Assembly: GCF_003259615.1 (NCBI RefSeq)
Contig: NZ_QLLR01000016.1
Span: forward strand, 1 to 64,000
DNA: 64,000 nucleotides
Source of the DNA: Pedobacter cryoconitis
Lineage (GTDB): Bacteria > Bacteroidota > Bacteroidia > Sphingobacteriales > Sphingobacteriaceae
Direction: 5' to 3'
Translations under genes and position numbers: made by a program
Shown here: piece by piece, positions 27,838-51,501 of the stretch
Layout of the letters: every line of letters begins with the position of its first letter
Position numbering within the stretch: the first letter of the stretch is position 1
The notes under the pieces: model-generated
The model's input: the letters and a program-made list of their open reading frames with translations, nothing else
What the model was told of the DNA's origin: nothing
The model's database searches: none

Positions 27838-28344
27838 CTATTCTAACCTCAATATATTAGCGCCCAAATCCTCATCAAAAACACGTTCAAATTTCTTGTC
27901 ATGCGTAATCACCATAATCTCCAGTGAGCCGGTCCCTACAGTACCGGACAAGATATGTCCGCCATAAGCCAGAAAATCATTTCCAGCAACAACTCCATGC
28001 AGATGGATACTTGGTTTTCCTTTCTGCCAGGCAATGGAACCGTTCATACTTGCAAGTTCAACATCTTTGAATTCACTGGGATTAAATTTTTTTGCTTTTG
28101 AATCGAAAAATCCAAATACTACATTGACAAATCCCATACCTGTAAAATTTGCAGAAAGTATCTTTTCATCTTTAGCAAATGCCTCCAATTGTTCGACAAT
28201 ATTATCTCCTTTTTGAAGTACCAGAAGATAACCAGCCGGTACTTTAGCATAGCGCTTATGCGATTCTGCTTTCTGAGCAAAGGTTACATCTGTAAATCCC
28301 AGGAGTAAAATTAATATGCACAAAACTTTTAAAGTATTTTTCAT
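27838..28344 (-). CDS. Secreted DUF296 (PPC/PCC domain) protein
   Basis: A 168-aa protein from ATG 28342-28344: signal peptide (about 1-24, ending TFAQ) followed by a PPC/DUF296 domain with GDNIVEQLEAFAKDEKI, the FTGMGFVNVV turn, SIHLHGVVAG and YGGHILSGTVG. The HLHG and GGH histidines match the metal-site residues of the family. Most PPC proteins are cytosolic or fused to AT-hooks, so a signal peptide is notable, though exported forms are known in Bacteroidota. A longer reading from 28383 would bury the signal peptide, and a -7 box sits between, so I reject it. Function unknown. Confidence 0.8.
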   Translation of the reverse strand: MKNTLKVLCILILLLGFTDVTFAQKAESHKRYAKVPAGYLLVLQKGDNIVEQLEAFAKDEKILSANFTGMGFVNVVFGFFDSKAKKFNPSEFKDVELASMNGSIAWQKGKPSIHLHGVVAGNDFLAYGGHILSGTVGTGSLEIMVITHDKKFERVFDEDLGANILRLE

Positions 28345-28353
28345 CTTTTTTTT

Positions 28354-28361
28354 CAAAAATA
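28354..28361 (-). promoter_or_regulatory. Candidate -7 box of the DUF296 gene
   Basis: The minus strand reads TATTTTTG, 9 nt before the preferred ATG at 28344 and inside the longer frame, supporting the shorter start. Confidence 0.4.
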
Positions 28362-28451
28362 CCCTAAAGATCAAAGTTGTCAAAATCAGTTAGCTGATAG
28401 CTAAACCTCATTGAGCTAATAAGGGCAATCATTGCTGTAGCATAAAAAAGG

Positions 28452-28485
28452 TAATCTGGTGCTTTCGATAGAAAACACCAGATTA
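28452..28485 (-). terminator. Terminator of the galactosamine PUL
   Basis: TAATCTGGTG (28452-28461) pairs with CACCAGATTA (28476-28485); on the minus strand it is followed by CCTTTTTTATG. It directly follows the GH114 stop codon and closes the PUL transcript. Confidence 0.85.
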
Positions 28486-28488: not shown

Positions 28489-29334
28489 CTATTTACATTT
28501 GTAAACCCATTTATCGAGATCTCTTTTCTTAAGAATAGCGGAGTATTTTAAATTCTGAGCTTTGGGACATACATTATTCTGAAAGGAACTTTGTGACATG
28601 TTATCAGTATACTCAACTGCAAATACAGGCTTATTTTGTGTAATATAAGGTTTTACATCATTCTCCCATTTTTGATCAAAAGCATCTTCAGTCAATACCC
28701 AATCAAATTTCTTACTGTATTCTGCAGACAGCTCAGGTACATTTTTCTGGCCAATGCCCAGACCTTTATCATGAGCCAGTTTAATCAAAAAGTCGCAATA
28801 TAATTTAGTATCATTAATACTAATATCAAACCCGGTTTCATTGCTGTAACTATCCAGGTTATCTGGCTCTATGGCATCAAATCCTTTACTGATAATTCTA
28901 TCAATCCGGGAATTAAGCCATGGCCTTAGTTTTTCCCGTTGCCTGATATCAAGCCAGCGCTCCTTTGGCCACTCTGGATACACCTGGCCAATAACTTCTT
29001 TTGGAAGCAGGTTAATATCTGGTCTGTCGTCTTCAATTGTTCCTGCAGAAATGTATGCAATCACCTTTTTCCCCTGGGCATGCAGCGCCGCTACCTGCTG
29101 AGCTGTCGTCGTAAACGCATCTACATCGACTACTTCTGCTGTAAATGTATCACTGTTTTTCAGGTCATCCAGACACCAGTCAAATGTTACACCTGCTTTG
29201 GGTTGCCACCAGGATACTTTACTGGCTTCATTTTGATTACCATCTGCAACATTATTGTCGCTATTATCCTTACTTTCTTTTTGACAGGCAGTCAAAGAAA
29301 GAATCAGAATTGATACTAGAATCGTGTTTTTCAT
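28489..29334 (-). CDS. GH114 endo-alpha-1,4-polygalactosaminidase lipoprotein
   Basis: A 281-aa lipoprotein (lipobox LTAC, C17) with a TIM-barrel GH114 domain from about residue 42. It carries the family landmarks: the WWQPKAGVTFDWCLDD entry, VVDVDAF (68-74), GKKVIAYISAGTIEDDRPD (88-106) and the acidic strand end FDAIEPDNLDSY with E156 and D158. GH114 enzymes cut alpha-1,4-galactosamine-containing polymers, for example the fungal galactosaminogalactan. The lipid anchor suggests it acts at the cell surface or in the periplasm. It is the last gene of a ten-gene PUL and lies 35 nt after GH109. The assignment is by pattern, and close TM1410-like relatives exist. Confidence 0.82.
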   Translation of the reverse strand: MKNTILVSILILSLTACQKESKDNSDNNVADGNQNEASKVSWWQPKAGVTFDWCLDDLKNSDTFTAEVVDVDAFTTTAQQVAALHAQGKKVIAYISAGTIEDDRPDINLLPKEVIGQVYPEWPKERWLDIRQREKLRPWLNSRIDRIISKGFDAIEPDNLDSYSNETGFDISINDTKLYCDFLIKLAHDKGLGIGQKNVPELSAEYSKKFDWVLTEDAFDQKWENDVKPYITQNKPVFAVEYTDNMSQSSFQNNVCPKAQNLKYSAILKKRDLDKWVYKCK

Positions 29335-29369
29335 AATTTATTTTTAAAGGTTAGATTTTTAAACATGGA

Positions 29370-30719
29370 TTAAAAGTCACTGTTGTCCAGTGCAAATGTA
29401 TTTTTGGAATCTTTCCACTTGCCTTTAGTAAAATCAGGAAACTGTTGTGGCATATTCCCTTCTTGTATTGACTTTTCGGAAAGCGGGGTAATGACGCTCA
29501 TCGTTAATGAATCATAAATATCTATCGGTGTCTGCTTCCGCTGTTTAACAGACTCTACAAAAGCATTAAACACAAACCAATCCATACCACCATGACCTGC
29601 TCCATCGGCCTGATGTTCATATTTTTTCCATAATGGATGGTCATATTTATCCAGCCATACTTTCGCTTTATCCCATTCGTCATAAGTTTTAGACTTGTCC
29701 TCTATGTAGATCGAATCTGCAACATCCATCCATAAACCCTGAGTTCCCTGTACTCTGAACCCTAAAGAATAGGGTCTGGGTAAATGAGTATCATGTGTTA
29801 AAGTGACCGTTTCTCCGTTTGCACAGTTCAGCATAGTGGTCACCAAATCACCATTTTTGAATTTTACAGCAAGATTTTTACTTCCAGGAGATGCTTTCTC
29901 TATATACTGGTGCAACCCCCTCGATTTGGAGGCAAACGAAACCAGGTTTGTAAACTGATTTCCTCTATTAATATTGATATAGTTCATAATCGGGCCAGCA
30001 CCATGCGTGGGATAAATATCTCCATTCCGGTCTGCGTTCCATTGTGTACGCCATTGGGCTTCTCCAACTGTGTCTGGCCCAAACTCCCCGCCCTTTGCGT
30101 CAAAAGATTTTCCATCATTAAACAAAACACCTCTGAGATCATGTTGGTATCCCCCTTCTAAATGTATCAGCTCTCCGAAAACATTATTCCGGACCATGTT
30201 TAATACAGCGAGTACATCCCGGCGGTAACAAACATTTTCCAGCGTCATGTAAGGGATTTTTGTCTCTTCATAAACTTTTAAGATCTCCCAGTGGTCTTCT
30301 ACCGTAATACCCGCAATCACTTCACAACCCACATATTTTCCAGCTCTCATTGAATCAATGGCCTGTTCTTTATGAAACTCCCATGGTGTTGCAATGATCA
30401 CCGCGTCTATATCTTTTCGTTCCAGTAGTTTTTTATAGGCATCAATTCCTCCGGTATATTCTGCAGGAAGTTTCTTGCCCGCCTTTACAAACTGTGCACG
30501 GCAGTATTTTAAAGAACTCTCCTGTGTATCACATATTGCAGTGATTTCCACATCAGAACGAAGAAGCCCTTCACTGATATGGTTCCTGCCCCTTAAGCCC
30601 ACACCGATATAACCTAATCTGATTTTGTCTTTTGCATTCGCAAATAATACTCCGGAGGGCATTAAAGTAAGTCCCGCCAATCCAACTAATCCGTTGGCAC
30701 AAAAATGTCTTCTATCCAT
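29370..30719 (-). CDS. GH109 alpha-N-acetylgalactosaminidase
   Basis: A 449-aa protein of the Gfo/Idh/MocA fold whose details match GH109, the NAD-dependent glycosidases that release terminal alpha-GalNAc by an oxidation-elimination route. It has a Tat-like signal (DRRHFCA, 2-8), the Rossmann motif GYIGVGLRGRNH (36-47), CYRRDV with Y165, GGYQHDLR and IYPTHGAGP with Y236 and H239, the residues expected at the active site. Later blocks (THDTHLPRPYSLGFRVQGT, DHPLWKKYEHQADGAGHGGMD in parts) also follow the known family. It starts 4 nt after the kinase gene stop. The Tat signal fits export of a folded, NAD-containing enzyme to the periplasm. Confidence 0.9.
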   Translation of the reverse strand: MDRRHFCANGLVGLAGLTLMPSGVLFANAKDKIRLGYIGVGLRGRNHISEGLLRSDVEITAICDTQESSLKYCRAQFVKAGKKLPAEYTGGIDAYKKLLERKDIDAVIIATPWEFHKEQAIDSMRAGKYVGCEVIAGITVEDHWEILKVYEETKIPYMTLENVCYRRDVLAVLNMVRNNVFGELIHLEGGYQHDLRGVLFNDGKSFDAKGGEFGPDTVGEAQWRTQWNADRNGDIYPTHGAGPIMNYININRGNQFTNLVSFASKSRGLHQYIEKASPGSKNLAVKFKNGDLVTTMLNCANGETVTLTHDTHLPRPYSLGFRVQGTQGLWMDVADSIYIEDKSKTYDEWDKAKVWLDKYDHPLWKKYEHQADGAGHGGMDWFVFNAFVESVKQRKQTPIDIYDSLTMSVITPLSEKSIQEGNMPQQFPDFTKGKWKDSKNTFALDNSDF

Positions 30720-30723
30720 GATT

Positions 30724-31851
30724 CTAGCTGTTAATTAACTGATGATGTTTTCCCGCTTCTTTAAATATTACTTTTTCCAGAACCGGAGAATGGGTGCACA
30801 ATTCCTTTAGCAGTTGTAGTTGCGCCCTGGTACGTTGAAGATTATGAGCTGGAGATTCGATCTTATAATAAGTATCTCCGTTGAGGTAGTCTGTTAAAAA
30901 TCTTACCGCCTGCATATAAGGCAGCAAAAGGACACCTTTGATTAAGGATCTTAACTCCCACTCATTCAGGAATTGCCCGGCTTCTTTCATATATCCTTTG
31001 GTATAGGCTCCAAATAGTGGAAGATTCAATTTAATCTTCGACAATTCCGGTTCATCCTCCGCAGCTGTATTAATAATAGTGCGGATAGCATCCCCAAAAT
31101 CATAAGCGATATAATCGGCCATTACAGTATCCAGGTCTATGATACACTGTGCCTTGCCTTTTAAATTCAATAGTACATTATTAAACTTAGTATCGTTATG
31201 GGTCACTCTCAAAGGCAAAGTGAGCCGCTGTTCATCCTCCTGAAAAAACAACATAGATTTAGCGCTGTCCTGTATCGTTTTTATCTCAGGCCATGCCTGT
31301 TGAACACGGTCAAAAGAATCTGTGTTTATGGCCTGTGCCAACTGCCCCAGTCTTTTTTCGATATTATGAAAATCAGGGATCACCTCATACATGGCTTCCG
31401 GAGAAAGATCATAAAGCATAGCCTGAAATTTACCGAAAGCTTTTCCACCCTCATAAGCCTGCTTTTCTGTTTCAACCACATCATAGGTTTTAGTATGCTT
31501 CAGAAAATGACACATCCGCCAATATTCCCCATTACTGTCCTGGTAAAAATAAGGGCCGGATTTAGTGGCAACCATGGTCATGACTTCTTTGTCAGGATTA
31601 CCTTTGCCGGCGATGATCATTTTATTTTTAAGATGTGCAATAACTCTGCACATATTTTCCGTAAGCCTGGGAACATCTTTAAACACGTGATGGTTGATCT
31701 TTTGAAGCAAATAGTCATGTTCTTCACTCACCAGGTTCTTTAGCCGATAAGTATCATTGATATGCCCTGTCCCATAAGATTTAAGAGAAGAAATATCAAC
31801 ATGACATTTAAACTGCGAAGTGATTTCAAATAAATTCTTAATTCTTTTCAA
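30724..31851 (-). CDS. N-acetylhexosamine 1-kinase (NahK-like)
   Basis: A 375-aa cytosolic kinase of the APH fold that matches bifidobacterial NahK along its whole length: SYGTGHINDTY (24-34) as nucleotide loop, RVTHNDTKFNNVLL with the catalytic Asp, IIDLDTVMADY, YDFGDAIR and the C-terminal FLTDYLNGDTYY and HNLQRTRAQLQL. NahK phosphorylates GlcNAc or GalNAc at the anomeric carbon. The start codon is TTG (31849-31851); no in-frame ATG lies close by and the family's N-terminus begins here. Its place beside GH109 points to GalNAc, giving GalNAc-1-phosphate. A GalNAc-1-P uridylyltransferase is not in the window. Confidence 0.85.
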   Translation of the reverse strand: MKRIKNLFEITSQFKCHVDISSLKSYGTGHINDTYRLKNLVSEEHDYLLQKINHHVFKDVPRLTENMCRVIAHLKNKMIIAGKGNPDKEVMTMVATKSGPYFYQDSNGEYWRMCHFLKHTKTYDVVETEKQAYEGGKAFGKFQAMLYDLSPEAMYEVIPDFHNIEKRLGQLAQAINTDSFDRVQQAWPEIKTIQDSAKSMLFFQEDEQRLTLPLRVTHNDTKFNNVLLNLKGKAQCIIDLDTVMADYIAYDFGDAIRTIINTAAEDEPELSKIKLNLPLFGAYTKGYMKEAGQFLNEWELRSLIKGVLLLPYMQAVRFLTDYLNGDTYYKIESPAHNLQRTRAQLQLLKELCTHSPVLEKVIFKEAGKHHQLINS

Positions 31852-31881
31852 AATATAACTTTAAGATGAATGGATAATTAT

Positions 31882-33435
31882 TTAATAAGCTGATTCGTCC
31901 GCGCCAATATCTACGCGGCCATTTCTCACTCTCGCTTCTTTATCGATGTCAAATTCTCCGGGTTGAGCCACAAATGAAGGCAGGCCCCTGTTAACACATA
32001 AAGACGTGTTGCTTAAATGAAGATTTGGGTTAGGCAAGGCGGCAGAAATAAAAGAAGGTGTACTGTAGTTTGAATTTGCATCTAAACCAGTTCCGGCTTT
32101 AAATGCGGCAAAAGAGGGATAGGTAATACCGTTAATCCCGCCCCAGTCAAAAGTAACAGTGGCTGCAGAGCCTGAGACAGAGAAATAATTGTTATAATCA
32201 AATACCAGGTTGGTTGAGTTATATCCGGAAGAAGCAACAATCACAATATTACTGGCAGATTGAATAATATTGTTTTTGATAGTCAGATGATCTGTATTTT
32301 GAAGATGGATTTCTCCTCCCCAACCAGTTTTTGAGTAGTTTTTAAATAAAGTGTTATTGGTAATCGTGGAATTAATGACTTTACTGTTTGCTGCATTCGA
32401 GCCCATTATTATTCCAGCCTCCACATTATTATAGATAAAATTGCTTCTGATATTGATTCCATCTGTGCTATTGTTATTGTTCTCACAACCAGCACTGATC
32501 CCTGTTGAGTTCTCGTAACAAGTATTTCCTTCAATATTGATCCATTTTGCCCCGTCTACATAAATACCAGCAGAAGTTGCTACGGGTGAAACGCAACGGT
32601 ATACTTTATTGTATTTCACATTGCCATTGCGTGCGAAATTTACGTTTGCAGGTGCGCCTGTCCAGGAATAATTGCCTGTCATATCAATTCCAATATTGGT
32701 GATGTCATGCACAGTATTATTCTCTATCAGGAAATTTTCTACATTACCCGCTACAGTTAATCCTTCGCTGAAACCGGTAGTACAGTTATAAATTTCATTA
32801 TTCCCGATATAGATCTGGTTATAGGAATTCGCAGTTGTTCCCACGATAACCAAAGGATTGGCATTATCACTTGAAGAAGGAACAGTAGCGGCATTTGATG
32901 TCCACCCAACATTGTATATTTTACAATCTGTAAAATGGACATCTGTTCCTGAACCAGACATATAGATGCCGGAAGCAAAACTCCGGATATTATTCGCAAT
33001 CCGGATAGATTGTACCCGGATATGACTTTTACTTGAAATGGCAATCATCGCGTTTTGTGCTGCATTGGTTGCATTCGCTCCGTCAAGAATCACCGTCCCG
33101 CTGTTGTAATTAGTCAGGGTAATAGGTTCAGTTGCGGAAGCTCCCGAATTGGGCCAGGTTAATCTTTCTTTATAGGTTCCTGCTGCCACGAAAATTGTGC
33201 TGCCTGCTCCTTCTGTTGTTTTATTCAATGCAGCCTGAATTGTTTTTAATGCCACAGCTGCCGATGTACCAGTATTGGTGTCATTTCCGGTTGTGCCATT
33301 GACATAATAGCTGGTCAGAGCAAGCAGCGTGGTCTTATCTTTTGAAGTTTCGGGCTGCCCCAAATTTCCATTGTTTACTTTGGAACAGGCACTAAAAAGC
33401 CCTGTCAGGAGGATAAAAATGATTACTTTTTTCAT
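31882..33435 (-). CDS. Parallel beta-helix lipoprotein
   Basis: A 517-aa lipoprotein (lipobox LFSAC, C17). After a YYVNGTTGNDTNTGTS entry it has a right-handed parallel beta-helix from about 60 to 400, with repeated coils such as NIRSNFIYNNVEAGI and LTIKNNIIQSASNIVI. The C-terminal NRGLPSF...FDIDKEARVRNGRVDIGADE block is the choice-of-anchor Q type tail. Such proteins are polysaccharide lyases, epimerases, esterases or glycan binders; the catalytic class cannot be read here. It lies inside the PUL between the acetyltransferase-like gene and the kinase, so it likely acts on the same glycan. Confidence 0.8.
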   Translation of the reverse strand: MKKVIIFILLTGLFSACSKVNNGNLGQPETSKDKTTLLALTSYYVNGTTGNDTNTGTSAAVALKTIQAALNKTTEGAGSTIFVAAGTYKERLTWPNSGASATEPITLTNYNSGTVILDGANATNAAQNAMIAISSKSHIRVQSIRIANNIRSFASGIYMSGSGTDVHFTDCKIYNVGWTSNAATVPSSSDNANPLVIVGTTANSYNQIYIGNNEIYNCTTGFSEGLTVAGNVENFLIENNTVHDITNIGIDMTGNYSWTGAPANVNFARNGNVKYNKVYRCVSPVATSAGIYVDGAKWINIEGNTCYENSTGISAGCENNNNSTDGINIRSNFIYNNVEAGIIMGSNAANSKVINSTITNNTLFKNYSKTGWGGEIHLQNTDHLTIKNNIIQSASNIVIVASSGYNSTNLVFDYNNYFSVSGSAATVTFDWGGINGITYPSFAAFKAGTGLDANSNYSTPSFISAALPNPNLHLSNTSLCVNRGLPSFVAQPGEFDIDKEARVRNGRVDIGADESAY

Positions 33436-33451
33436 ATAGGTTCAGGTTAAT

Positions 33452-34561
33452 TTATAGTTTAAAGAAGATTTTGTTTTTATAGAGCCAGTAACAGAGTGAA
33501 CATTCTGCAAACCATACCGCTAAAGCAGAGATCAGCCCGGTAAAATTGACAGGCAGATTAAAAAGAAGGTGCAGCATATCTCCGGTAAAAATCCCAACAG
33601 CGCCATTGAGCCATTCATGCCCAACAGTTTCAAAAAAGACGTAAATAAAAATGGCATTCATCCCTACTACGGTAAAAAACCAGGCATACTTTATATTTTG
33701 CCTGACATCAACCAACCAGTAAATCGCAGCTAACATCAACAGTACCCAACCTCCCGATGCGAAAACAAAGGAACTTGTACTGATTCGTTTAATAATCAGC
33801 GTAATCCCACTCAGATCCATGCCAAAACCAATCAATAATCCAATACTGCCTGCAAATACCAGCGCTTTGATTTTCTCTGCCGCCGTTTGCTTTGAGATTA
33901 AGAGTTTGCCGGCCAGCACTCCCCAAATAGTATGTGCAGCAGTAGGAATGGCATTAATTGCCACCCAGCCATCAGTGTTGATTTTACCCATAAGCAGGGT
34001 ATCCACATAGGCCCCAAAATTATGGTACTCCGTAAAGGGCTGATCAAATCCCGGCACATGCACATAGCGGTATAAAGTTTCAGTCAGGATCAATAGTGCT
34101 ATGGAAAACAGGAACTGGAATACGGGATCCCTGTTAATAATGAGGTAAGCAACAAGGCTGGTAAAAGCAAGCTGGGTCAGTACATTCCAAAGTTCAAAAA
34201 CAGGTTTTCCTGCATAGACACAATGCAGCCCCACACCAAAAAGGAAGAGTTTAAAACTCCTGATTAAAACATGCTTGAGATTACGCTGCCATGTGATTCC
34301 CTTTTCCAGCTTTCTGCTGTAGGAAATATATAACGCGGCACCTGCCATAAACATAAATGCCGGCTGTACAAGATCCCAAAAACGAAGTCCATGCCATGGG
34401 TGATGAAAAAGCTGATCAATTATAAAGGAATTTTCATTCAGCCTTTTCAAAGACACAAAAACTAAACAACTTTCTGCACAAAGCAAGATCATGATCATTC
34501 CACGCATCACGTCTAAAGACATAAGTCTCCCCGCTACAGTCTGATTATCTGTATTTTTCAT
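33452..34561 (-). CDS. HGSNAT-like transmembrane N-acetyltransferase (DUF5009)
   Basis: A 369-aa inner-membrane protein with about ten hydrophobic segments. It belongs to the DUF5009/COG4299 family, the bacterial relatives of heparan-alpha-glucosaminide N-acetyltransferase. The N-terminal RLMSLDVMRGM (12-22) and LFHHPWHGLRFWDLVQPAFMFM match the first helices and loop of HGSNAT; H53/H54 align with the loop holding the active-site His of the human enzyme. NAIPTAAHTIWGVLAGKLL and GMNAIFIYVF follow. HGSNAT moves acetyl from cytosolic acetyl-CoA onto terminal amino sugars across the membrane. In this PUL the probable substrate is terminal alpha-GalN, made ready for GH109. The fold call is fairly sure; the substrate is inference. 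Confidence 0.8.
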   Translation of the reverse strand: MKNTDNQTVAGRLMSLDVMRGMIMILLCAESCLVFVSLKRLNENSFIIDQLFHHPWHGLRFWDLVQPAFMFMAGAALYISYSRKLEKGITWQRNLKHVLIRSFKLFLFGVGLHCVYAGKPVFELWNVLTQLAFTSLVAYLIINRDPVFQFLFSIALLILTETLYRYVHVPGFDQPFTEYHNFGAYVDTLLMGKINTDGWVAINAIPTAAHTIWGVLAGKLLISKQTAAEKIKALVFAGSIGLLIGFGMDLSGITLIIKRISTSSFVFASGGWVLLMLAAIYWLVDVRQNIKYAWFFTVVGMNAIFIYVFFETVGHEWLNGAVGIFTGDMLHLLFNLPVNFTGLISALAVWFAECSLCYWLYKNKIFFKL

Positions 34562-34591
34562 CGATATAATTTTAAATGGTATTTTTTGAAC

Positions 34592-35446
34592 TTACTCTAA
34601 CATTTCCAGAAGAAATCCGGGTTGCCCTTCATCAGGTGCATAACCAAGTGATACAGACCAGTCACTTTTAGTGGCGATAATGCCTATTCTTGCTCCTGAA
34701 CCTGTGAGACTTTTTAACTTACCGCGTACCAGCCGCATTTCAAACTTCAAAAGTCCGCCTTCTTCTACAACTGTTCCAATTTGATAAGCCTCTGTGATTG
34801 ATTGCTGCTGAAAGGAAAAACTGGTTTGAGGACCATTATGATAAAAAACATCCATATTCCCGGTAAGCAGAGGTCCTTCAAGTAAAATATCATAACCGCC
34901 GCCGGGAAAACCACCGAGTAGCCCCGTTGCACTGCTGTTGTCGGAGTCTATATAAAAATCAAAAATATCAGCATTAGATTTTCCAGAAGCCATTTCCATA
35001 TAGATGTAGATATAATTTCCATCGTAGTCGTATTTAACTTTCCTAAAAACCCCTCCTTTAGCACCAGAAGTAATGACATTTGCTGTAATTGTATTCCAGT
35101 CATCCAGTGTCTGGTCATTCAATTTCACAGGACTGCTTTTCGCAATCCGGATAACCGTCGAAGCCTCTGCAGGCTGCCCGTTAACTGTTGCATAAAGTGT
35201 AGGTACGTATTTCCCTTTGCCAGGATAAGTATGTACAGGACTGGCTTCTGTTGAAGATTGCCCATCACCAAAATCCCATTTATAGCTGGATATTCCGGTA
35301 GTAACTGGTTTAAATTTCACCTGGTTCCCCTCTACTTCCAGTGTGTATGACAGGTCGGTAAATTTTTCATTTTTATCCTTTTTACAAGAACTCCATACTG
35401 ACCCCGCCAGAATCAGTACAAAACCTAATTTTTTTATAGTTTTCAT
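34592..35446 (-). CDS. PKD-domain surface glycan-binding lipoprotein (SusE-like role)
   Basis: A 284-aa lipoprotein with lipobox WSSC. The ATG at 35444-35446 is chosen because it starts the signal peptide and follows the SusD stop by 13 nt; the longer frame overlaps susD. Residues about 25-105 form a PKD domain (YKWDFGDGQSSTEASPVHTY). The C-terminal half has a beta-rich region with FDFYIDSDNSSATG and GGYDILLEGPLL, similar to Ca-binding carbohydrate modules. Its place after SusCD is that of the third outer-membrane glycan binder of a PUL. No catalytic residues are evident. Confidence 0.78.
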   Translation of the reverse strand: MKTIKKLGFVLILAGSVWSSCKKDKNEKFTDLSYTLEVEGNQVKFKPVTTGISSYKWDFGDGQSSTEASPVHTYPGKGKYVPTLYATVNGQPAEASTVIRIAKSSPVKLNDQTLDDWNTITANVITSGAKGGVFRKVKYDYDGNYIYIYMEMASGKSNADIFDFYIDSDNSSATGLLGGFPGGGYDILLEGPLLTGNMDVFYHNGPQTSFSFQQQSITEAYQIGTVVEEGGLLKFEMRLVRGKLKSLTGSGARIGIIATKSDWSVSLGYAPDEGQPGFLLEMLE

Positions 35447-35459
35447 GTCTGTATACGGT

Positions 35460-36968
35460 TTATGGGTTTTGAATAGCCTTTGGATTACTAAGTACCTCAT
35501 CTACTGGAATAAAATAAATAATCCTTGGATTGGTAAAATCTATACTCAAATTCGGATAACCGGAAGGAGTTTTAGAGAGATCTATATCTGTTTCCTTTAA
35601 TCCCTGTATATGATAACCCCAATAGGTTTTATTCATTTTTCTTTTATTCCTGTATACATCGTATGAACGGTGGCCTTCAAAAGCCATTTCTATTCTTTTT
35701 TCATCCAGAACCACATCCATCGCTGTTGCGCCTGATGGGAGTGTTTTATTGTAAAGCGATGCTTCTAAACCACGGTTAGCACGAATTTGATCTACATCAT
35801 CCAGCGCAGCATTTGTATTGCCTGTTTTTGCTTCTGCTTCTGCCCTGTTTAAATACATTTCACTCAGTCTGAATAGAATCGGTGAGCTCAGGTTAGGTGA
35901 GCCATCCTGAAAAGAAAATTTACTGATATAATAAACTTCAATCCCATTCTTCTTTTGAACAGCTCCGTCTCCATCTTTAAGTGGTTTGATATAGGACCAT
36001 CTGACATCTTCAGGATGTTTAGACATCAGGTTTCGCAGTGACGAAGAGGCATATTCTTCTCCCCATCCGGAATTACCGTCAGAAAATACCATAGAAGCTA
36101 TAGATCCGAATTTACCATAATCATCAACGGCTGTAAATGCAACGCATAAAATAGTTTCATTACCAGCTTTTGCATTGGCAAACAAAGCGGGATAACTAGT
36201 TTTGGTTTCCAGTTTAAAACGGTTGGAAGCAATAACTTTGTTAGCATAGTCAATGGTTTTAGCATGATCTTCTTTATAAAGATTCACCCTGGACAAAAGT
36301 GCCCAGGCAGCCTCTTTTGAAGCATATTGAACGCCCCTGGAAAGACTCATCAGCGAAGCACCTTTTTCTGCGTCGGCAATAACCGCCTCATAAACTTCAG
36401 CCACTGTAGACCGGGCTTTTTTTGCTTCACCGGTCAACGAAGTCCGGAGAATAATACCAGGTGAACTGGAGTCAATAGTATAAGGTTTACCGAATAAACG
36501 TACGAGGTTAAAGTGACAATAAGCTCTCAGAAAGTAACATTCTCCTAGTAATTGCTGCGTTTTAACATCATTCTTACCAGATTTCTCTACAGCATCAATT
36601 ATAGTATTTACCCCGGTTATGATTTTATAAGATACATACCAGAAATAACGGGTGTTACTTTGACCGGGAGAATGTAAAAGATTGAAACTGTAAAATAAAG
36701 GATCTTCAGTGACCTGTCCGCAAACAATATCATCACTTGCAAAATCAGACAACTGATAAAACTGCCGCAGATACATATTGTTCTGATCTACGATACCGTT
36801 AAAAGTTATATGGTCTTTAAATAAAGCATATGCTCCGTTTAAAGCATTGGTTAAGCCTTCTTCTGTGGTGACCAGATCTGTTGTATTAATGGCATCGCTT
36901 GGTGAGATCTCTGCATTTTTACAACTGCTTACTGCAATAAAAAATAGAATAAATATAATTTTCTTCAT
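35460..36968 (-). CDS. SusD/RagB-family glycan-binding lipoprotein
   Basis: A 502-aa outer-membrane lipoprotein (signal MKKIIFILFFIAVSSC, lipidated at C16). The ATG at 36966-36968 is 4 nt after the SusC stop; the longer frame would overlap susC without a signal peptide. It has the SusD order: N-terminal alpha helices with TPR-like repeats (ECYFLRAYCHFNLVRLFGKPY, in parts), a middle domain and the C-terminal RLSEMYLNRAEAEAKTGN and DEKRIEMAFEGHRSYDVYRN blocks. It pairs with the adjacent SusC as the lid of the transporter. Confidence 0.93.
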   Translation of the reverse strand: MKKIIFILFFIAVSSCKNAEISPSDAINTTDLVTTEEGLTNALNGAYALFKDHITFNGIVDQNNMYLRQFYQLSDFASDDIVCGQVTEDPLFYSFNLLHSPGQSNTRYFWYVSYKIITGVNTIIDAVEKSGKNDVKTQQLLGECYFLRAYCHFNLVRLFGKPYTIDSSSPGIILRTSLTGEAKKARSTVAEVYEAVIADAEKGASLMSLSRGVQYASKEAAWALLSRVNLYKEDHAKTIDYANKVIASNRFKLETKTSYPALFANAKAGNETILCVAFTAVDDYGKFGSIASMVFSDGNSGWGEEYASSSLRNLMSKHPEDVRWSYIKPLKDGDGAVQKKNGIEVYYISKFSFQDGSPNLSSPILFRLSEMYLNRAEAEAKTGNTNAALDDVDQIRANRGLEASLYNKTLPSGATAMDVVLDEKRIEMAFEGHRSYDVYRNKRKMNKTYWGYHIQGLKETDIDLSKTPSGYPNLSIDFTNPRIIYFIPVDEVLSNPKAIQNP

Positions 36969-36972
36969 TTCC

Positions 36973-39900
36973 TTAAAAATTAAAATTGACAGTGAACAAG
37001 TATTGCCTGTTATTCGGATATTTAAAATCAGATACACCTGGTGTAGCATTCCCGGGTGTAATCGTAGTTTGAGGGTCCTGACCTAAGAAATTTGAAAAAG
37101 TGGCCACATTATCTGCTGTTACCCCTACGGTAATCCGCTCCATGTTTAATTTCTTCGCCAAATTTTGAGGTAGTGTATAATTCAAAGCAATATTTCTGAT
37201 GGTCAGATAACTTCCATTTTTTAAATAACGGGTAGAAGTTTCAGTAGAATTGGCCGAATTCTGAGGGCTTGGTTCCGTTGCTCCGGTATCACCGGGGAAA
37301 CTCCATATTCTTGATCCGGATGGCATTTGAATCTGGTTATAATAAGGCTCATGACCATCATTCATCATAAAGCGCAGGTTATTACTAAAAACCTTATTAC
37401 CGTAGTTGAAATAAGTACTGATTCTCAGGCTGAAGTCTTTGTATTTAAAACTGTTGTTAAATCCACCCTGATATTTTGGAAGTGCACTTCCTGCTTTTTG
37501 GTTTGTCGCTTCTGAATAGTTCAAGGTCCGTTCACTTCCTACAGCCTTTCCATTTTCATCATTGATGATCTTCTCCCAGACAGGTGCCCCGGTCTGGCTG
37601 TCTACACCAAGCCATTTGGGCATATAAAATTCATATAAATTCCCTCCATTACTATAGATCTGCGAGATATTCCAGGAGCCGGTTTTAACAATATCGGAAG
37701 GCAAACCATATAACTTATTATCATTAAAGTTGATGGTAAAATCTGTTGCCCACTCAAAGTTTTTTGTTTTGATATTGATAGTGTTTATACCCAGTTCTAT
37801 TCCCCGGTTAATCACATTCCCTGAATTCTCCCACCTTGTTTCAAAGCCAACTGACAGTGGCTGGGAAACTTGCAATAAAAGATTTTTAGTGTTGTTCCGG
37901 TAGGCATCTAAAGTCAGGTTAACTCTTTTGAACAAGCCGATGTCAATACCTGCATTAACCTGGTGTTTACTTTCCCAGGTGAGCAGCGGATTTGCCAGCT
38001 GAAAAGGTACAGCCCCGATTAAGCCGTTGTATTGTGTGGTTAAAGAATACAGGCCCAGGTATCTGGAGGACCCAATATCCTGAGTACCGGTCACCCCATA
38101 ACTAAATCTTAATTTCAAATTATCGATTGCGGCATGGTCTTTCATGAAATCCTCATTACTGATCAGCCAGCTTCCTGATAAGGCAGGAAACGAGGCATAT
38201 CGGTTTGCTTTGGGAAAAGCTGAAGAACCATCTACACGAAAGGAGGCGGTCAGAAAGTAGCGGCTTTTATAATTATAATTAACTTGAGAAATTATAGACT
38301 GAAGGTATTTCTTATCATTTAACCCAGTTACAAGCTGACCGTTTGATACTACATTCAATACTTTCAAGCCTGCAGGTAAACCTTTTCCGGAACCACCTGA
38401 AAGTTCAGTCTGTGATCCTTCTAAAGCTACTCCTGCAAAACCACTCATGGTATGGTCTGATAGTCTGAAGTTAAATTTCAAGAGGTTATTTGAAATCCCG
38501 CCATAATTAAAGGTATTCAATTCACTCAGAAATCCTTGTCCATGGTAAGTACCAGCAGTTAATGGGGAATAGTAATTGGCTACTTTATTAAATGACGCAG
38601 AACCCCGGTTTGTACTGGAGAATATCAGCCAATCGTTAATATGATAGTTTACCGCAAAATCATAATTCACATCAAAGCCCTTAGTAGGATGGTCAGAATT
38701 TTCAACGGAATGGATAGGATTTACTTTATCCCTTGACCACCACTTAAAAGTAGAATTTCCGTCTACATATACAGGTGAGCCATTTTCATCATATGGATTA
38801 TCCCATGGTAAATTCAGAAAGGCGTAATAGACATCATTGTAATCATAACTGTGACCGTCTTGCGCACTAATGTTTATATTGTTAGTGATGCTGAGGTTTT
38901 TTGAAAAGTTATAAGTTGAATTTGCCCTTAGATTTATCCTTTGAAAATCTGTGTTCAGAAAAGTGCCTTTTTCTTTATAATAGGACGCGCCAATGTAATA
39001 ACTGTTTTTCTCTGTCCTGCCACTGGCAGATAGATAAACGCTATTTATAGGAGCTGGTTTAAAGGATTCATTCGACCAGTCATAATCCTGGTTCCTTAAA
39101 CTCAATGGCCGCTCCTGATAGAATTTGGTCAAATCTATTTTGTATGAGTTATCTGTTGCACCCACAATATAATCCCGGTAAAATTCCTTTTGATGGTCAT
39201 AAAGTTCATTACTGTTCATCAATTTCATTTTCCCAAAGTCCGGTGTCTTAAATCCGGAGGAGACTTTAACTTCAAAATTGATTTTGTCGGTTTTAGCACT
39301 CTTTGTGGTGACGATAATGACTCCTGCATTTGCTTGTGAGCCGTATAAAGCAGTCGCTCCTGCATCCTTAAGGACAGTGATACTTTCTACATCATTAGGA
39401 TCATAATTTCCACCAATAATTCCATCTACTACTACCAGCGGACTTTGGCTGGCATTTACAGAAGAAACTCCCCGAAGCCTGATTTCAGGGGCAGATCCTG
39501 GTGCGCCAGAACTGTTGATCACCTGTAAGCCGGCTACTTTCCCTTGTAACATGGCTCCAATATTATTGGAAGTTACATCCTTTAATTTTTCTGATGAAAC
39601 AACAGATACAGCACTCGTCAGCTCACTTTGTTTTTTGGAGTCATAACCAACTACAATTACATTGTTTAGCTGGCTAACATCTTCATCAAGGATGATATTG
39701 AGTAACTGCCCTGGAACTACCTTCACCTCTTTACTTAAATATCCAATAAAAGAAACGGTCAATATTGCCTGATCATTGACCCCCTTTAACAGAAAACCTC
39801 CTTCTGCGTCTGTGCTAACGACTCTTTTTTGTCCCTTTATGCTGACCGATGCGCCAGGTAAAGGGCGGCCATCTTTATCTATGACTTTTCCTTTTACATC

Positions 39901-40359
39901 AACATCTTTAATAGCGATGATTTCAGGATGTACCGGAATGAAGGATTTCACCTTAATCAATATGGTTTTCCGGTCGATTTTATAGGTCAGGTTCTGGTCT
40001 TTCAACAAAGTTTCCATAACCTGGTCAAGCGCTGAATTTTTGAAGTCTACATTAATTTTCAACTGACCGTTTACATTCTGGTCTGAATATAAAACTCTGA
40101 ATCCTGCTTGCTTTTTGATTTCCAGGAAAACCTGCTGAAGCGTCGTATTCTGTTTGGTATAACTGATGCGCTGTGCAAAACTGGCCGCACTAACTTGCAA
40201 CAAGCAGCTTGTAATGATGGCGACAATCAGGTTAATTCTCATTAATAATTTTCTTTTATTCTTTGTTAAGGCTTGCTGAATAACAAATTTCAGGATAAAT
40301 AAAAGTTTAGGAAATAGCCATATGCGTAGCATACCTAGGTTAAAAGCATTTAATTTCAT
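36973..40359 (-). CDS. SusC/RagA TonB-dependent transporter with STN domain
   Basis: An 1128-aa outer-membrane transporter from the ATG at 40357-40359; an upstream TTG frame is rejected. A long signal region (about 1-62, ending SAASFAQR) precedes an STN domain (about 64-138, TLQQVFLEIKKQAGFRVLYS), a CarboxypepD_reg-like domain (about 152-225), the TonB plug (about 250-360; LQGKVAGLQVINSSGAPG) and a barrel ending in the aromatic FTVNFNF. The STN domain is the one that talks to FecR, and a FecR/sigma pair lies directly upstream, so import of the substrate can switch on the operon. Confidence 0.93.
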   Translation of the reverse strand: MKLNAFNLGMLRIWLFPKLLFILKFVIQQALTKNKRKLLMRINLIVAIITSCLLQVSAASFAQRISYTKQNTTLQQVFLEIKKQAGFRVLYSDQNVNGQLKINVDFKNSALDQVMETLLKDQNLTYKIDRKTILIKVKSFIPVHPEIIAIKDVDVKGKVIDKDGRPLPGASVSIKGQKRVVSTDAEGGFLLKGVNDQAILTVSFIGYLSKEVKVVPGQLLNIILDEDVSQLNNVIVVGYDSKKQSELTSAVSVVSSEKLKDVTSNNIGAMLQGKVAGLQVINSSGAPGSAPEIRLRGVSSVNASQSPLVVVDGIIGGNYDPNDVESITVLKDAGATALYGSQANAGVIIVTTKSAKTDKINFEVKVSSGFKTPDFGKMKLMNSNELYDHQKEFYRDYIVGATDNSYKIDLTKFYQERPLSLRNQDYDWSNESFKPAPINSVYLSASGRTEKNSYYIGASYYKEKGTFLNTDFQRINLRANSTYNFSKNLSITNNINISAQDGHSYDYNDVYYAFLNLPWDNPYDENGSPVYVDGNSTFKWWSRDKVNPIHSVENSDHPTKGFDVNYDFAVNYHINDWLIFSSTNRGSASFNKVANYYSPLTAGTYHGQGFLSELNTFNYGGISNNLLKFNFRLSDHTMSGFAGVALEGSQTELSGGSGKGLPAGLKVLNVVSNGQLVTGLNDKKYLQSIISQVNYNYKSRYFLTASFRVDGSSAFPKANRYASFPALSGSWLISNEDFMKDHAAIDNLKLRFSYGVTGTQDIGSSRYLGLYSLTTQYNGLIGAVPFQLANPLLTWESKHQVNAGIDIGLFKRVNLTLDAYRNNTKNLLLQVSQPLSVGFETRWENSGNVINRGIELGINTINIKTKNFEWATDFTINFNDNKLYGLPSDIVKTGSWNISQIYSNGGNLYEFYMPKWLGVDSQTGAPVWEKIINDENGKAVGSERTLNYSEATNQKAGSALPKYQGGFNNSFKYKDFSLRISTYFNYGNKVFSNNLRFMMNDGHEPYYNQIQMPSGSRIWSFPGDTGATEPSPQNSANSTETSTRYLKNGSYLTIRNIALNYTLPQNLAKKLNMERITVGVTADNVATFSNFLGQDPQTTITPGNATPGVSDFKYPNNRQYLFTVNFNF

Positions 40360-40575
40360 ACTTTCGTAAGCTTGGGTTAATACATGAACGGATCTCAATT
40401 TTGTTTTTTGGGTTAACTCAGATCTTTGCCATGGAAGTGCTGATACACTTTCATGGCTTTCTCTTGAAAACCGGAAGTATTAACTTGCTTTTCCCTTGAT
40501 TCTTTTCATTTTGTTTTGGTTTTATGGTTGATAGGTTGGTTTTTACCGGATTGGTCAGATCCTCTTTTATTCTTT

Positions 40576-41703
40576 TTATTTAGTAATTACACTGATTTTT
40601 CTTCCTTCAATAGTGAAGCGTACATTACTGGTTTCCTCCAGCATTTTTAAAACACTTGATATATTTTCAGCCCGGGAAACAGAGCCAGTAAATGTGGGTA
40701 TGTCCACCGGAGTATGCACATACCTGATCTCTACATCATACCACCGGGAAACTTTCTTCAGAATACTGGTTAAGGATTCATTCGTAAATACAAATTCCCC
40801 ATTTTTCCAGTCCACGGCATCATTAACATTCACTTCTTTCACACTGAATTTTTCGCCTGCCATTGAAGATTGTTCTCCTGGTTTTAAAGTGATTTGTTGA
40901 TTCAACTTTACTGAGCCTTCTAATAAGGTTGTTTTAATCAGCTGTTCATCAGGATAAGCACTCACATCAAAGTGAGTTCCCAAAACCCGGATTTCTTGTC
41001 TTCCGCTTTTCACAATAAAAGGATGTGTTTTATCTTTGGCAACTTCAAAATAAGCCTCTCCGCTTAGTTCAACTCTGCGTTCTTTTAATGCGGCAAAAGA
41101 CGACGGATATTTTAAAGAAGAAGCTGAGTTCAGCCAGATCCTGGTGCCATCGGGCAAATTCAGCTGGTACTGCCCTGCGCGAGGAGTTTCAATCCTGTTA
41201 TATCCAGCAATGCCTTTTTTCCCCTGATCAGTAATGGTATAAACTAATTGCCCGTCTGCAGTTTTAGTAATCTTTATCCCTGCTTCTTCTGCAAGTATAC
41301 CATTAACTGAATTTGTCAATGCGAGTTTTTTCCCACTGGCCAGGGTCAGATAAGCTTTATTCATCCCTGCAGGAATGTCATTTGTATAAGCTTTAAACCG
41401 GGTTGATTCAGGTGAAGAGTGCTGCTGATTATAGTACAGGCTAATTCCTGCAACCAGGGCTATGGATGCTGCAGCTGCCAGTGAGATCACTGATTTCTTG
41501 TATTGATTAAGCCAATGTTGTTTTTTATTCCGTTCCAGTGATGCCCACATCTGGTTACTGGCTTCATGAAGTTCTTCTTCAGAAAGTCCAGCCTCTTCCT
41601 GCTGGTGAAGTTGATGTAACCAAAGTTTAGCGATAGTTTCTTCCTCCGGGTTATAATTGCCCGAACTGATCTTATCCAATACATCTTTTACATCCTTCTT
41701 CAT
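40576..41703 (-). CDS. FecR-family anti-sigma factor
   Basis: A 375-aa single-pass membrane protein. The cytosolic N-terminal part (about 1-67) would bind the sigma factor; one transmembrane helix (about 70-88, VISLAAAASIALVAGISLYY) follows, then a periplasmic FecR domain (about 175-275) with ETPRAGQYQLNLPDGTRIWL and VELSGEAYFEVAKD, and a C-terminal DUF4974 domain (about 305-372). It responds to the STN domain of SusC and releases the sigma factor. It lies 109 bp after the sigma gene and 216 bp before susC. Confidence 0.93.
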   Translation of the reverse strand: MKKDVKDVLDKISSGNYNPEEETIAKLWLHQLHQQEEAGLSEEELHEASNQMWASLERNKKQHWLNQYKKSVISLAAAASIALVAGISLYYNQQHSSPESTRFKAYTNDIPAGMNKAYLTLASGKKLALTNSVNGILAEEAGIKITKTADGQLVYTITDQGKKGIAGYNRIETPRAGQYQLNLPDGTRIWLNSASSLKYPSSFAALKERRVELSGEAYFEVAKDKTHPFIVKSGRQEIRVLGTHFDVSAYPDEQLIKTTLLEGSVKLNQQITLKPGEQSSMAGEKFSVKEVNVNDAVDWKNGEFVFTNESLTSILKKVSRWYDVEIRYVHTPVDIPTFTGSVSRAENISSVLKMLEETSNVRFTIEGRKISVITK

Positions 41704-41812
41704 TGAAATGTTTTTTGTTATTGCTCAACAAGATTAAAGACGATTTAGCAGGAGAGATTAGGTACACCTCTTAAAAATAAAATTACAAACAACTGATATT
41801 CAGCTAAATAAT

Positions 41813-42391
41813 TTAAATTTTAAAGATCCACAAAAGATAAACTACCAGTCCGAGTTTTATTCGCAGATGTTTCATAGCTCTTTTGAGTTGTGTGGACACG
41901 GTATGTTCGGAGACACCCAATTGCAGGGCAATTTCTTTGGTACTTAAATAGTTTTTTCTTTTTAGAATATAGATCTCCCTCATTTTAGGGGGCATTGCGG
42001 CAATTTCCCGTTCAATTAAAGCCTTAATATCTTTTTCCCGAATCAGATAATCGGTTTCTGCAGAATTGAGCTCGACATAATGCTCCCCGCTTTCAGCATA
42101 TTTTTTTATAATACCTTTATGTTTGAAAATATCGAATATTTTATGAAGGACTGCTTTATATAGATAACCAGACAGCGATACCTTCAAATGAATTTCATTC
42201 CGATTATTTAACAACCAGGTAAAAACATCCTGAACAACATCTTTAGCCTCCTCTTTGTTCCTCAGTTTCTTATAGGCATATAAGTATAACAGTTTATCAT
42301 ACCGGAGATAAATTTCCCTGAAAGCAGCGTCATTATCCTCTTTCAACAAAAGGATCAATTCACTGTCAGTAAAGGCATTATAGTTGGCCAT
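41813..42391 (-). CDS. ECF sigma-70 factor
   Basis: A 192-aa extracytoplasmic-function sigma factor. Region 2 spans about 20-90 (FREIYLRYDKLLYLYAYKKLRN, in parts, then EAKDVVQDVFTWL) and region 4 about 125-180 (MPPKMREIYILKRKNYLSTKEIALQLGVS, in parts). It is followed by FecR and the SusCD operon, the standard sigma/anti-sigma/transporter unit of Bacteroidota. The natural target promoter is upstream of susC (40400-40575), but the motif is not recognisable. Confidence 0.93.
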   Translation of the reverse strand: MANYNAFTDSELILLLKEDNDAAFREIYLRYDKLLYLYAYKKLRNKEEAKDVVQDVFTWLLNNRNEIHLKVSLSGYLYKAVLHKIFDIFKHKGIIKKYAESGEHYVELNSAETDYLIREKDIKALIEREIAAMPPKMREIYILKRKNYLSTKEIALQLGVSEHTVSTQLKRAMKHLRIKLGLVVYLLWIFKI

Positions 42392-44924: not shown

Positions 44925-45033
44925 AACACAAGAATAATTTGCAGGAATAATTAAGTGGTAGAAAAACATGTCAACAGCTCTATCTCCTTTTGAAATGCGC
45001 TTTTTTGACTTATCTTAACCCTAACTTTATTCC

Positions 45034-49111: not shown

Positions 49112-49136
49112 AGTATCGGGTTATTTAATGTATTTA

Positions 49137-50432
49137 CTAAACTACAGAATGATTTGGATTGACAACGCTGCTCAAACTTTCAGCCTCAAGTTCCAACTCC
49201 TGGTTCATAATTTTTCCTTTTTTAATGATGCCTTTAGCCACCCAGTACGAACTGAGCTGTAAAACGGCAACAATAATAATGGCATAACGCAAAGCGATTT
49301 CAGTAGAGAAATAGTAAGCAAGCAATAAAAATGTCCCGGCACCAGTTAAACGACCAACGTATAAACCAGCCTCGTGATTCAAAATATAGGCAAATTCACT
49401 TCGTTTTTCCTTTTTTGTAAGAATATCAATCACGCTAAACTGGATCGGGAAATAAGCCAGATCCAATAAAGGCTTGGCCAGTAATAAAAACAACATAAAC
49501 AGAATCACTCCAGTTTCATTAAACAGGATTCCGTTGATAAGTGCTGCGATGGTAAACAAAGCCAGTCCAATTCCAAATACATATACCCGGTGTTGTGGCC
49601 CTGTTTTACGCCCGATGATGTACATCAGCACAGCGGCAAATATAGCACCAACCGATTGAGCGGTACCCAATGCGCCTTCTTTACCCAATAAAAGCATAAT
49701 CAGCATCGCCGGAGCTGTAACCAGGAAGCCTTGCACCAAACCTTTCAATACCGCCAGAAACAGCAATTTATTCCAATAAGGATCAAACTTAAAGTAAATG
49801 AATTTTTTATTGATTGGATTGATAAACTTACCAGTAAAACACATGATGGATGCACCAATGGTGACGATAAACACAATGCCTGTTACAATTTTATAGGCAA
49901 GCTTAGCATCGCCGGTACCTGCATAAAACTCGATAAACCAACCGATCAAAACTGGAATGACCACCGCGATAATGGTATAAAAGAAAGTTTCCAGTCCATA
50001 ATAGTAATTTCGGTTCTCATCATTTGTGGTCGCCAGCGCCAGAAAATCCCGGTTTGCCCAGTAAAATCCAAAGGACATGCCCATCACAATTCCCGCAATG
50101 GCAATTCCGGTAATGTCCAGGGTAGTCAGCGACATCATAATCATCATGGAAATGCCGCTCAGTACCATCCCAAAGGAATAGAGTACCTTAATGGGAAAAC
50201 GATTCAACAACCACCCATTGATTAAAAAAGTTAAGGGTATACCCGTATAAATTGTTAATTGATACACCACCACTTTAACCGGATCGTTGGAACTGCGCAT
50301 CACATAAGCCGCAACAAAAATATCAATAACCGGCAAGACCAGGCTATAGATTAAATTGGTTAAGGTAAGCACCTTAAAGTTATGCGACTGGCTTTTGAAA
50401 TGTGCAATTTCAGATTTGAGTTTGCTAATCAT
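49137..50432 (-). CDS. MFS sugar transporter of the GH130 locus
   Basis: A 431-aa inner-membrane protein with 12 predicted helices and no signal peptide, of the major facilitator superfamily. The loop between helices 2 and 3 (INGWLLNRFPIKVLYSFGM) is MFS-like. Its start overlaps the GH130 stop by 8 nt, indicating coupling. By position it would import the short oligosaccharides that GH130 then phosphorolyses in the cytosol; that role is inferred from context, since the sequence itself does not give the substrate. Confidence 0.82.
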   Translation of the reverse strand: MISKLKSEIAHFKSQSHNFKVLTLTNLIYSLVLPVIDIFVAAYVMRSSNDPVKVVVYQLTIYTGIPLTFLINGWLLNRFPIKVLYSFGMVLSGISMMIMMSLTTLDITGIAIAGIVMGMSFGFYWANRDFLALATTNDENRNYYYGLETFFYTIIAVVIPVLIGWFIEFYAGTGDAKLAYKIVTGIVFIVTIGASIMCFTGKFINPINKKFIYFKFDPYWNKLLFLAVLKGLVQGFLVTAPAMLIMLLLGKEGALGTAQSVGAIFAAVLMYIIGRKTGPQHRVYVFGIGLALFTIAALINGILFNETGVILFMLFLLLAKPLLDLAYFPIQFSVIDILTKKEKRSEFAYILNHEAGLYVGRLTGAGTFLLLAYYFSTEIALRYAIIIVAVLQLSSYWVAKGIIKKGKIMNQELELEAESLSSVVNPNHSVV

Positions 50433-51474: not shown

Positions 51475-51501
51475 GCCGTAAGAAATAAATGATTATAATA
51501 A

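Follow-up and report, generated by a model that had tools for sequence, protein, structure and literature searches.

Pel and galactosaminogalactan (GAG) are cationic, sticky polymers found in the matrix of bacterial and fungal biofilms. Here, we describe a ten-gene locus of Pedobacter cryoconitis, at positions 28489 to 42391 of the first 64,000 nucleotides (nt) of contig NZ_QLLR01000016.1 (the window; G000:C18, from a genome of 6.08 Mb), which is probably a polysaccharide utilization locus (PUL) for partly N-deacetylated alpha-1,4-galactosamine polymers, either Pel-like or fungal GAG. Its nearest characterised counterpart is BT4240-50 of Bacteroides thetaiotaomicron, which is presumably under sigma/anti-sigma control. 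Both loci contain a SusC/SusD pair, a GH109 enzyme, and a NahK-like kinase, specific for N-acetylgalactosamine (GalNAc) in BT4240-50, and the major facilitator superfamily (MFS) transporter of BT4240-50 is matched in some sister loci of the window locus (PMC11992087). In contrast, BT4240-50 targets mucin glycopeptides via an M60-like peptidase and GH2, and we found neither domain in the window's ten proteins (PMC11992087). The window locus adds an acetyltransferase and a GH114 protein; the word "acetyltransferase" is absent from the main text of the BT4240-50 paper (PMC11992087).

The initial annotation knew of no described PUL with this gene set. We likewise found neither an uptake locus for Pel or GAG nor a PUL of this kind in the open-licence literature, which was covered mostly as titles and abstract openings. 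BT4240-50, the nearest described PUL, shares the sigma/anti-sigma pair, SusC/SusD, GH109, and the GalNAc kinase but acts on mucin. Among single enzymes, NahK of Bifidobacterium longum (solved structures 4ocu and 4wh1), which belongs to a bifidobacterial pathway, matches the window kinase over nearly its whole length, HNDTK motif included. Ega3 of Aspergillus fumigatus belongs to the same GH114 family as the window protein and has an aligned Asp/Glu pair, but it is a single fungal enzyme, whereas the window protein is a bacterial lipoprotein in an import operon (PMC12054363). Bacterial GH114 endo-galactosaminidases "remain elusive" in the production attempts of a 2025 structural study (PMC12054363). 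A GH114 lipoprotein whose partner genes are evident is therefore a useful candidate.

Gene content of the locus

We found ten open reading frames (ORFs), all on the minus strand, in the order and of the families listed in the initial annotation:

41813 to 42391, minus strand: extracytoplasmic function (ECF) sigma factor (TIGR02985, 132.4 bits, cut-off 126.4; PF08281)
40576 to 41703, minus strand: FecR-type anti-sigma factor (PF04773, PF16344)
36973 to 40398 (ORF limits; start probably internal), minus strand: SusC-type TonB-dependent transporter with STN domain (TIGR04056, 733.7 bits; PF07660)
35460 to 36968 (ORF to 37049; likely ATG at 36968), minus strand: SusD-type lipoprotein (PF14322, PF07980)
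34592 to 35446 (ORF to 35500; likely ATG at 35446), minus strand: PKD-domain lipoprotein in the SusE position, putative surface glycan binder (PF18911)
33452 to 34561, minus strand: HGSNAT/NagX-like transmembrane N-acetyltransferase (NF046061, 120 bits, cut-off 480; 8vkj; His53)
31882 to 33435, minus strand: right-handed beta-helix lipoprotein (PF13229)
30724 to 31851, minus strand: NahK-like N-acetylhexosamine 1-kinase, predicted cytoplasmic GalNAc kinase (PF01636; 4ocu, 205.9 bits; HNDTK Asp220)
29370 to 30719, minus strand: predicted GH109 alpha-N-acetylgalactosaminidase with Arg-Arg N-terminus (PF21252, 280.9 bits; 2ixa, 486 bits; Tyr236, His239, Glu161)
28489 to 29334, minus strand: GH114 lipoprotein, predicted surface endo-alpha-1,4-galactosaminidase (PF03537, 219.5 bits; 6oj1, 129 bits; Asp158/Glu216)
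28452 to 28485, minus strand: intrinsic-terminator-like hairpin (15-bp stem, 4-nt loop, T-rich tail)

The ORF coordinates agree with a single unit with gaps of 4 to 35 nt after susC; from susC to the GH114 gene, the gaps are 4, 13, 30, 16, 30, 4, and 35 nt when the likely SusD and PKD starts, chosen by reading of the sequence, are used. Matches to Pfam, NCBIfam, and solved structures upheld the family calls of all ten proteins, that of the acetyltransferase only as HGSNAT/NagX-like. Adjoining SusC and SusD genes in one unit with GH109 and GH114 make the locus a PUL. The proteins from SusC to GH114 are 83 to 96% identical in three other genomes of the genus, where the sigma factor and FecR are 77 to 92% identical.

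The hairpin begins 3 nt past the GH114 stop. As judged by eye, the three closest relatives have a hairpin-like sequence, of other letters, shortly 3' of GH114. Promoter-like and terminator-like sites in the window (43 and 14) were in no excess over shuffles (45.9 and 12.1), so we judged the hairpin on its stem length and position only. Its presence after GH114 in the window and the three relatives suggests that GH114 probably closes the operon in all four.

Enzymes and a proposed order of steps

The GH114 protein matched PF03537 at 219.5 bits, against a curated Pfam cut-off of 27, and its best solved match was Ega3 (6oj1, 129 bits). The catalytic pair of this A. fumigatus endo-alpha-1,4-galactosaminidase, numbered Asp189 and Glu247 (PMC12054363), aligned with Asp158 and Glu216 of the window protein. 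Asp158 was kept in 86 of 86 rows and Glu216 in 85, the other row being gapped (six places double-counted). Endo activity on alpha-1,4-galactosamine (alpha-1,4-GalN) is predicted, and the lipoprotein-like N-terminus suggests a surface location. For GH109, we found matches to the C-terminal domain PF21252 (280.9 bits), the Rossmann domain PF01408 (44.7 bits), and the solved alpha-N-acetylgalactosaminidase 2ixa (486 bits). Tyr225, His228, and Glu149 of 2ixa, which we take to be active-site residues, aligned with Tyr236, His239, and Glu161, and these were kept in all 24 rows (one place double-counted). We read the Arg-Arg N-terminus as resembling a twin-arginine translocation signal. The proteins encoded from 28489 and 29370, whose assignment to other families would have refuted the initial annotation, are firmly GH114 and GH109, with conserved catalytic residues.

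The kinase matched PF01636 (APH, 57.6 bits) and solved NahK (4ocu, 205.9 bits across residues 6 to 352), and Asp220 of its HNDTK motif was kept in 26 of 26 rows (one place double-counted). On the precedent of BT4240, we predict a preference for GalNAc. For the acetyltransferase, the only solved relative found was an HGSNAT chain (8vkj, E 1.1e-5). The acetyl-carrier histidine of HGSNAT (His297 in the numbering of PMC9007349) aligned with His53, present in all 44 rows (one place double-counted). NagX (PMC9007349) and human HGSNAT are membrane acetyltransferases of this same type, with a conserved acetyl-carrier histidine. Unlike NagX, the window protein scored far below the equivalog cut-off (NF046061; 120 bits, cut-off 480), and its neighbours are alpha-GalNAc enzymes, not chitin genes. 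Because it missed this cut-off and had no Pfam match at E ≤ 0.01, including to the HGSNAT catalytic-domain model PF07786 (named in PMC9007349), we labelled it HGSNAT/NagX-like only.

These assignments are consistent with the following pathway. The GH114 surface lipoprotein would first cut the chain in GalN-rich stretches, and the PKD protein, SusD, and SusC would bind and import the oligosaccharides, a ligand predicted from their families. The HGSNAT/NagX-like protein would then acetylate GalN ends, or free GalN, before a periplasmic GH109 frees GalNAc from the predicted linkage. Acetylation would convert residues that GH109 cannot use into usable ones, a bacterial counterpart of events in the lysosome, where HGSNAT acetylates heparan sulfate ahead of alpha-N-acetylglucosaminidase. 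Finally, a sugar importer, encoded elsewhere in this genome and within the locus in some relatives, would bring GalNAc in, and the NahK-like kinase would yield GalNAc-1-phosphate. The ECF sigma factor, FecR, and the STN domain of SusC would sense the ligand. The families and the comparative genomics below agree with the substrate class named in the initial annotation; the polymer itself, the acetyl acceptor, and the step order are what we infer from the families and residues.

The acetyltransferase may instead act on free galactosamine or glucosamine, as for NagX, with no acetylate-then-cleave step. We consider this unlikely, and it overlaps with our preferred explanation. Fitness data from five bacteria link NagX to the use of free glucosamine (PMC9007349), and the window's genome has no second match to its acetyltransferase at E ≤ 1e-30, so that this one protein may serve more than one source. 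However, we recognised no exo-galactosaminidase in the locus, while GH114 products should bear GalN ends, and monosaccharides should need no SusC/SusD pair.

Sister loci and the alternation of GH114 with DUF4832

Homologues of the acetyltransferase (E ≤ 1e-30) gave 88 matches in 82 of 300 genomes of the order. We scored 57 loci: 44 of these 88 (the window, L035 to L037, and 40 chosen by hand in descending order of match, with some skipped) and, from a sample across the phylum, 13 of 16 matches. As core loci we took the 31 that had the acetyltransferase and a SusD at least 50% identical; the presence of core genes in them thus reflects selection, and because the examined stretches were at most 20 kb, an absent gene may lie past the end. 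We found PKD genes in all 31, the kinase in 26, DUF4832 in 24, GH109 in 23, GH31 in 16, and CBM9 in 14, followed by NagP-like MFS (10), NagB-like (9), beta-helix (8), GalE-like (4), and GH114 (4) genes. The block SusC-SusD-PKD-acetyltransferase-kinase-GH109 recurs across Sphingobacteriaceae. The 13 stretches from outside the window's family (L194 to L206) carry an acetyltransferase homologue that is not in this locus type; the nearest of them, L194, has NagB-, kinase- (35%, other strand), DUF4874-type, and PKD-like (27%) genes.

DUF4832 and GH114 occurred together in none of the 31 core loci, and three (L156, L174, and L176) had neither. The DUF4832 proteins of the sister loci are DUF4874/DUF4832 lipoproteins. 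An auxiliary query, X500, shares its opening motif with the DUF4832 protein, so DUF4832-type genes may be undercounted in the non-core loci L180, L186, and L194. The window's own genome had no DUF4832 match. Likewise, searches of the four genomes with the GH114 PUL for the sister GH31 and DUF4832 proteins gave nothing at E ≤ 1e-10. Among five comparison genomes, GH31 matches were strong in G221, the query's own genome, and G343 and were weak and partial in G301 and G315; DUF4832 matches were found in G221, G343, and G315.

In the SusD tree, the GH114 loci formed one clade (100/100) among DUF4832-type loci (midpoint root, for drawing only). This nesting speaks for GH114 having taken the place of a DUF4832 gene. 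In the GH109 tree, the GH114 loci did not form one clade (5% of bootstrap trees). We also found that the DUF4832 model PF16116 had 63 matches in 53 of 300 genomes of the order, apparently the same genomes as in the acetyltransferase sample. An acetyltransferase match lay no more than 10 kb away from 46 of the 63, among them all 43 best; uniform placement in 5-Mb genomes predicts about 0.2. Conversely, 43 of the 88 acetyltransferase matches had PF16116 nearby.

DUF4832 is an accessory gene in pel operons of streptococci and clostridia (PMC7112168). In 2025, SIR_1591, a TIM barrel with DUF4832, was reported to disrupt Pel-dependent aggregates of Streptococcus intermedius, and Ega3 failed to disrupt these GalNAc-rich aggregates (PMC12345266). 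SIR_1591 lies in a Pel-making and not an uptake locus, and the DUF4874/DUF4832 lipoproteins of the sister loci are likened to it by domain description only (PMC12345266). GH114 and DUF4832 never co-occur in the core loci, and published studies connect each of them with alpha-1,4-GalNAc/GalN polymers; two different enzymes thus alternate in one locus.

The sister GH31 proteins were nearest to the solved GH31 alpha-galactosidases 8j50 to 8j53 (543 to 667 bits), which would fit the galactose in fungal GAG. These solved enzymes reportedly prefer alpha-1,4-galactobiose, which we did not use as evidence. That GH31 is absent here points to a polymer poor in galactose, for instance Pel, which is mainly an alpha-1,4 GalN-GalNAc repeat (PMC9135694). 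We predict that GH114-type loci target a more deacetylated, galactose-poor polymer and that loci with DUF4832 and GH31 target a more acetylated, galactose-containing one. The parts of the locus are ordinary, while their combination is unusual and coherent, and the predicted substrate gains strong comparative support. A wider proposal, which we put forward tentatively, is a widespread Sphingobacteriaceae family of PULs for cationic alpha-1,4-galactosamine matrix polymers (GAG and Pel), with an acetylate-then-cleave step and interchangeable endo-hydrolases: GH114 would act on deacetylated polymer, and DUF4874/DUF4832 proteins, then a glycoside hydrolase family of their own and a new one, on acetylated polymer. 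The proposal includes an analogous Chloroflexota operon of separate origin with GH114, DUF4832, and a tagatose-type pathway.

If this is true, the loci would tell who recycles Pel- and GAG-type polymers in soil and water and would supply a bacterial enzyme set for breaking biofilms. They would also give a function to DUF4874/DUF4832 and a genetic handle on the question of whether bacteria re-acetylate the ends of oligosaccharides to let an exo-hydrolase act.

GH114 outside the locus and alternative substrates

PF03537 matched in 14 of 301 sampled genomes of the family, six at more than 200 bits, and the window GH114 protein matched in 13 of 400 genomes of the order (E ≤ 1e-15). After removal of 6 second copies from 32 loci, 26 distinct GH114 places remained besides the window. 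We found the same block at three of them, L035, L036, and L037 (which coincides with L044 of P. cryoconitis S3M1). The 23 others include Pedobacter, Mucilaginibacter, Dyadobacter, and Chitinophaga, as well as L050, L060, and L061, contigs of 3 to 14 kb on which the block could hardly show. G308 and G336, two of the genomes with the block, each carry another GH114 copy away from it, and no neighbouring family (four genes on each side, 21 loci) occurred in more than 4 loci. GH114 was considered as the defining gene and rejected, given its presence in the block at 3 of 26 places and the lack of a recurring neighbour. The GH114 component of the initial annotation therefore stands for four genomes of one clade; since GH114 also lies outside the block elsewhere in Bacteroidota, it does not define the locus.

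In the GH114 tree, built without duplicates and without loci above L066, the four block copies formed a single clade (97/97) that joined L038 and L039, also of this genus (86/93). This grouping points to a probable acquisition of the gene inside the genus. L038 (2-10459), from Pedobacter nutrimenti, has the nearest GH114 not belonging to the block, directly 3' of two SusC/SusD pairs unlike the window's; it counts in favour of the proposed PUL and is possibly a second kind of GH114 PUL. At L041, the second GH114 copy of G336, a SusC/SusD pair lies about 0.8 kb upstream on the same strand. Separately, we observed Bacteroidota GH114 genes without the block or a recurring partner at L015 to L019, L039, L040, L042, L043, and L047 to L058. 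The most frequent GH114 neighbour family (4 loci) looks, by reading, like a Crp-type regulator.

Several findings weigh against a galactosamine-polymer PUL, beginning with the low NagX score, the possible action on free amino sugars, and the 23 GH114 places that lack the block. The fold predictions of the PKD and beta-helix proteins, each from a two-row alignment, gave unusable models (mean predicted local distance difference test score, 36.9 and 41.5, respectively). The window locus lacks the GalE and transporter found in some sister loci, and the best NagP-like protein of the genome, encoded outside the locus, scored 402.6 bits against a family cut-off of 625. Seventeen of the 63 PF16116 matches were not near an acetyltransferase, and the DUF4832 domain occurs on many glycoside hydrolases (PMC12345266), so that the domain alone is no proof. 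Finally, ZGAL_1272 of Zobellia, a putative GH114 25% identical to the characterised enzyme, is agar responsive, and its authors suggest another specificity (PMC5613140), which also argues against one substrate for the whole GH114 family; GH109 enzymes and GalNAc kinases are used on mucin and blood-group substrates as well (PMC11992087).

One alternative is a mucin or glycoprotein GalNAc PUL like BT4240-50, which combines a SusC/SusD pair and GH109 with an MFS protein and a NahK-like kinase specific for GalNAc (PMC11992087). According to this model, GH109 would strip alpha-GalNAc from Ser/Thr or terminal epitopes, the kinase would capture it, and GH114 would be a bystander at the operon end, as its tie to the block at only 3 of 26 places would allow. 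We regard this as improbable. Pfam found no M60-like peptidase or GH2 domain in the ten proteins, and the model has no obvious use for an amino-sugar acetyltransferase (31 of 31 core loci, by selection) or a DUF4832 hydrolase (24 of 31). In addition, GH114 lies at most 35 nt past GH109 and before the hairpin in the window and is directly 3' of GH109 in three relatives.

The agar response of the distant GH114 and the broad linkage range of GH109 would also suit some other alpha-GalNAc/GalN polymer, such as an O-antigen or a teichoic-acid-like or capsular polymer, whose galactosamine stretches GH114 would trim. The ligands of the beta-helix and PKD proteins are unassigned, and several sister loci carry unclassified proteins of 663 to 699 amino acids. 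We consider this explanation unlikely too. Published work ties both the GH114 and the DUF4832 types to alpha-1,4-GalN/GalNAc chains, and the GH31 proteins of 16 of the 31 core loci, nearest to alpha-galactosidases, fit the galactose, GalNAc, and GalN make-up of GAG.

As separate observations, the family profile of the beta-helix protein covered only the first ~80 residues of the solved xylosidase 3vst (E 0.0022), and the DUF4832 profile gave two matches at chance level (E 0.4 and 0.52). The 663- to 699-amino-acid proteins, at L176:5871-7967, L184:12220-14208, and L180:14948-17020, had no Pfam match over cut-off and one weak match to a GH31 TIM barrel; they are possibly unclassified glycoside hydrolases. 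For the 699-amino-acid protein of L176, we found no relative among solved structures, and neither Pfam nor NCBIfam gave a match at the limits used.

Chloroflexota operons and neighbouring genes

Both GH114 and DUF4874/DUF4832 were found in one plus-strand run at L066 (46-12817), in a metagenome-assembled genome of Anaerolineales (Chloroflexota). The run also holds an amidohydrolase, a SIS protein, an ATP-binding cassette (ABC) importer, a GNAT acetyltransferase, GH4, and a ribokinase-like kinase. The nearest NCBIfam models of the SIS protein were glucosamine-6-phosphate deaminase GlmD and AgaS, both below cut-off. A tagatose-1,6-bisphosphate aldolase (PRK12858) scored over cut-off, and a GatZ/KbaZ protein matched PF08013 and reached 565 for agaZ_gatZ against a cut-off of 569. 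L067 has most of the L066 genes, including those for tagatose-bisphosphate aldolase, and L072, which is cut by the contig end, has the upstream half of the set; no DUF4832 was seen in either. All three share GH114 with GH4, SIS, and the ABC importer. L066 looks like a galactosamine catabolic operon whose importer and sugar pathway are unlike those of the window locus.

Beside the window locus, a gene for a TonB-dependent outer-membrane protein (OMP_b-brl_3; 42519-44969) lies directly upstream of the sigma gene. An OMP_b-brl_3 gene is also present by the locus in G336 and G308 and was not seen in the G307 stretch. A PCC-domain protein is encoded just downstream of the operon terminator (27838-28383). 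A second PUL, at 47405-60330, holds a hybrid two-component regulator, SusC, SusD, a GH130-type phosphorylase, an MFS transporter, and a 568-amino-acid protein without a Pfam match; it probably serves a mannoside.

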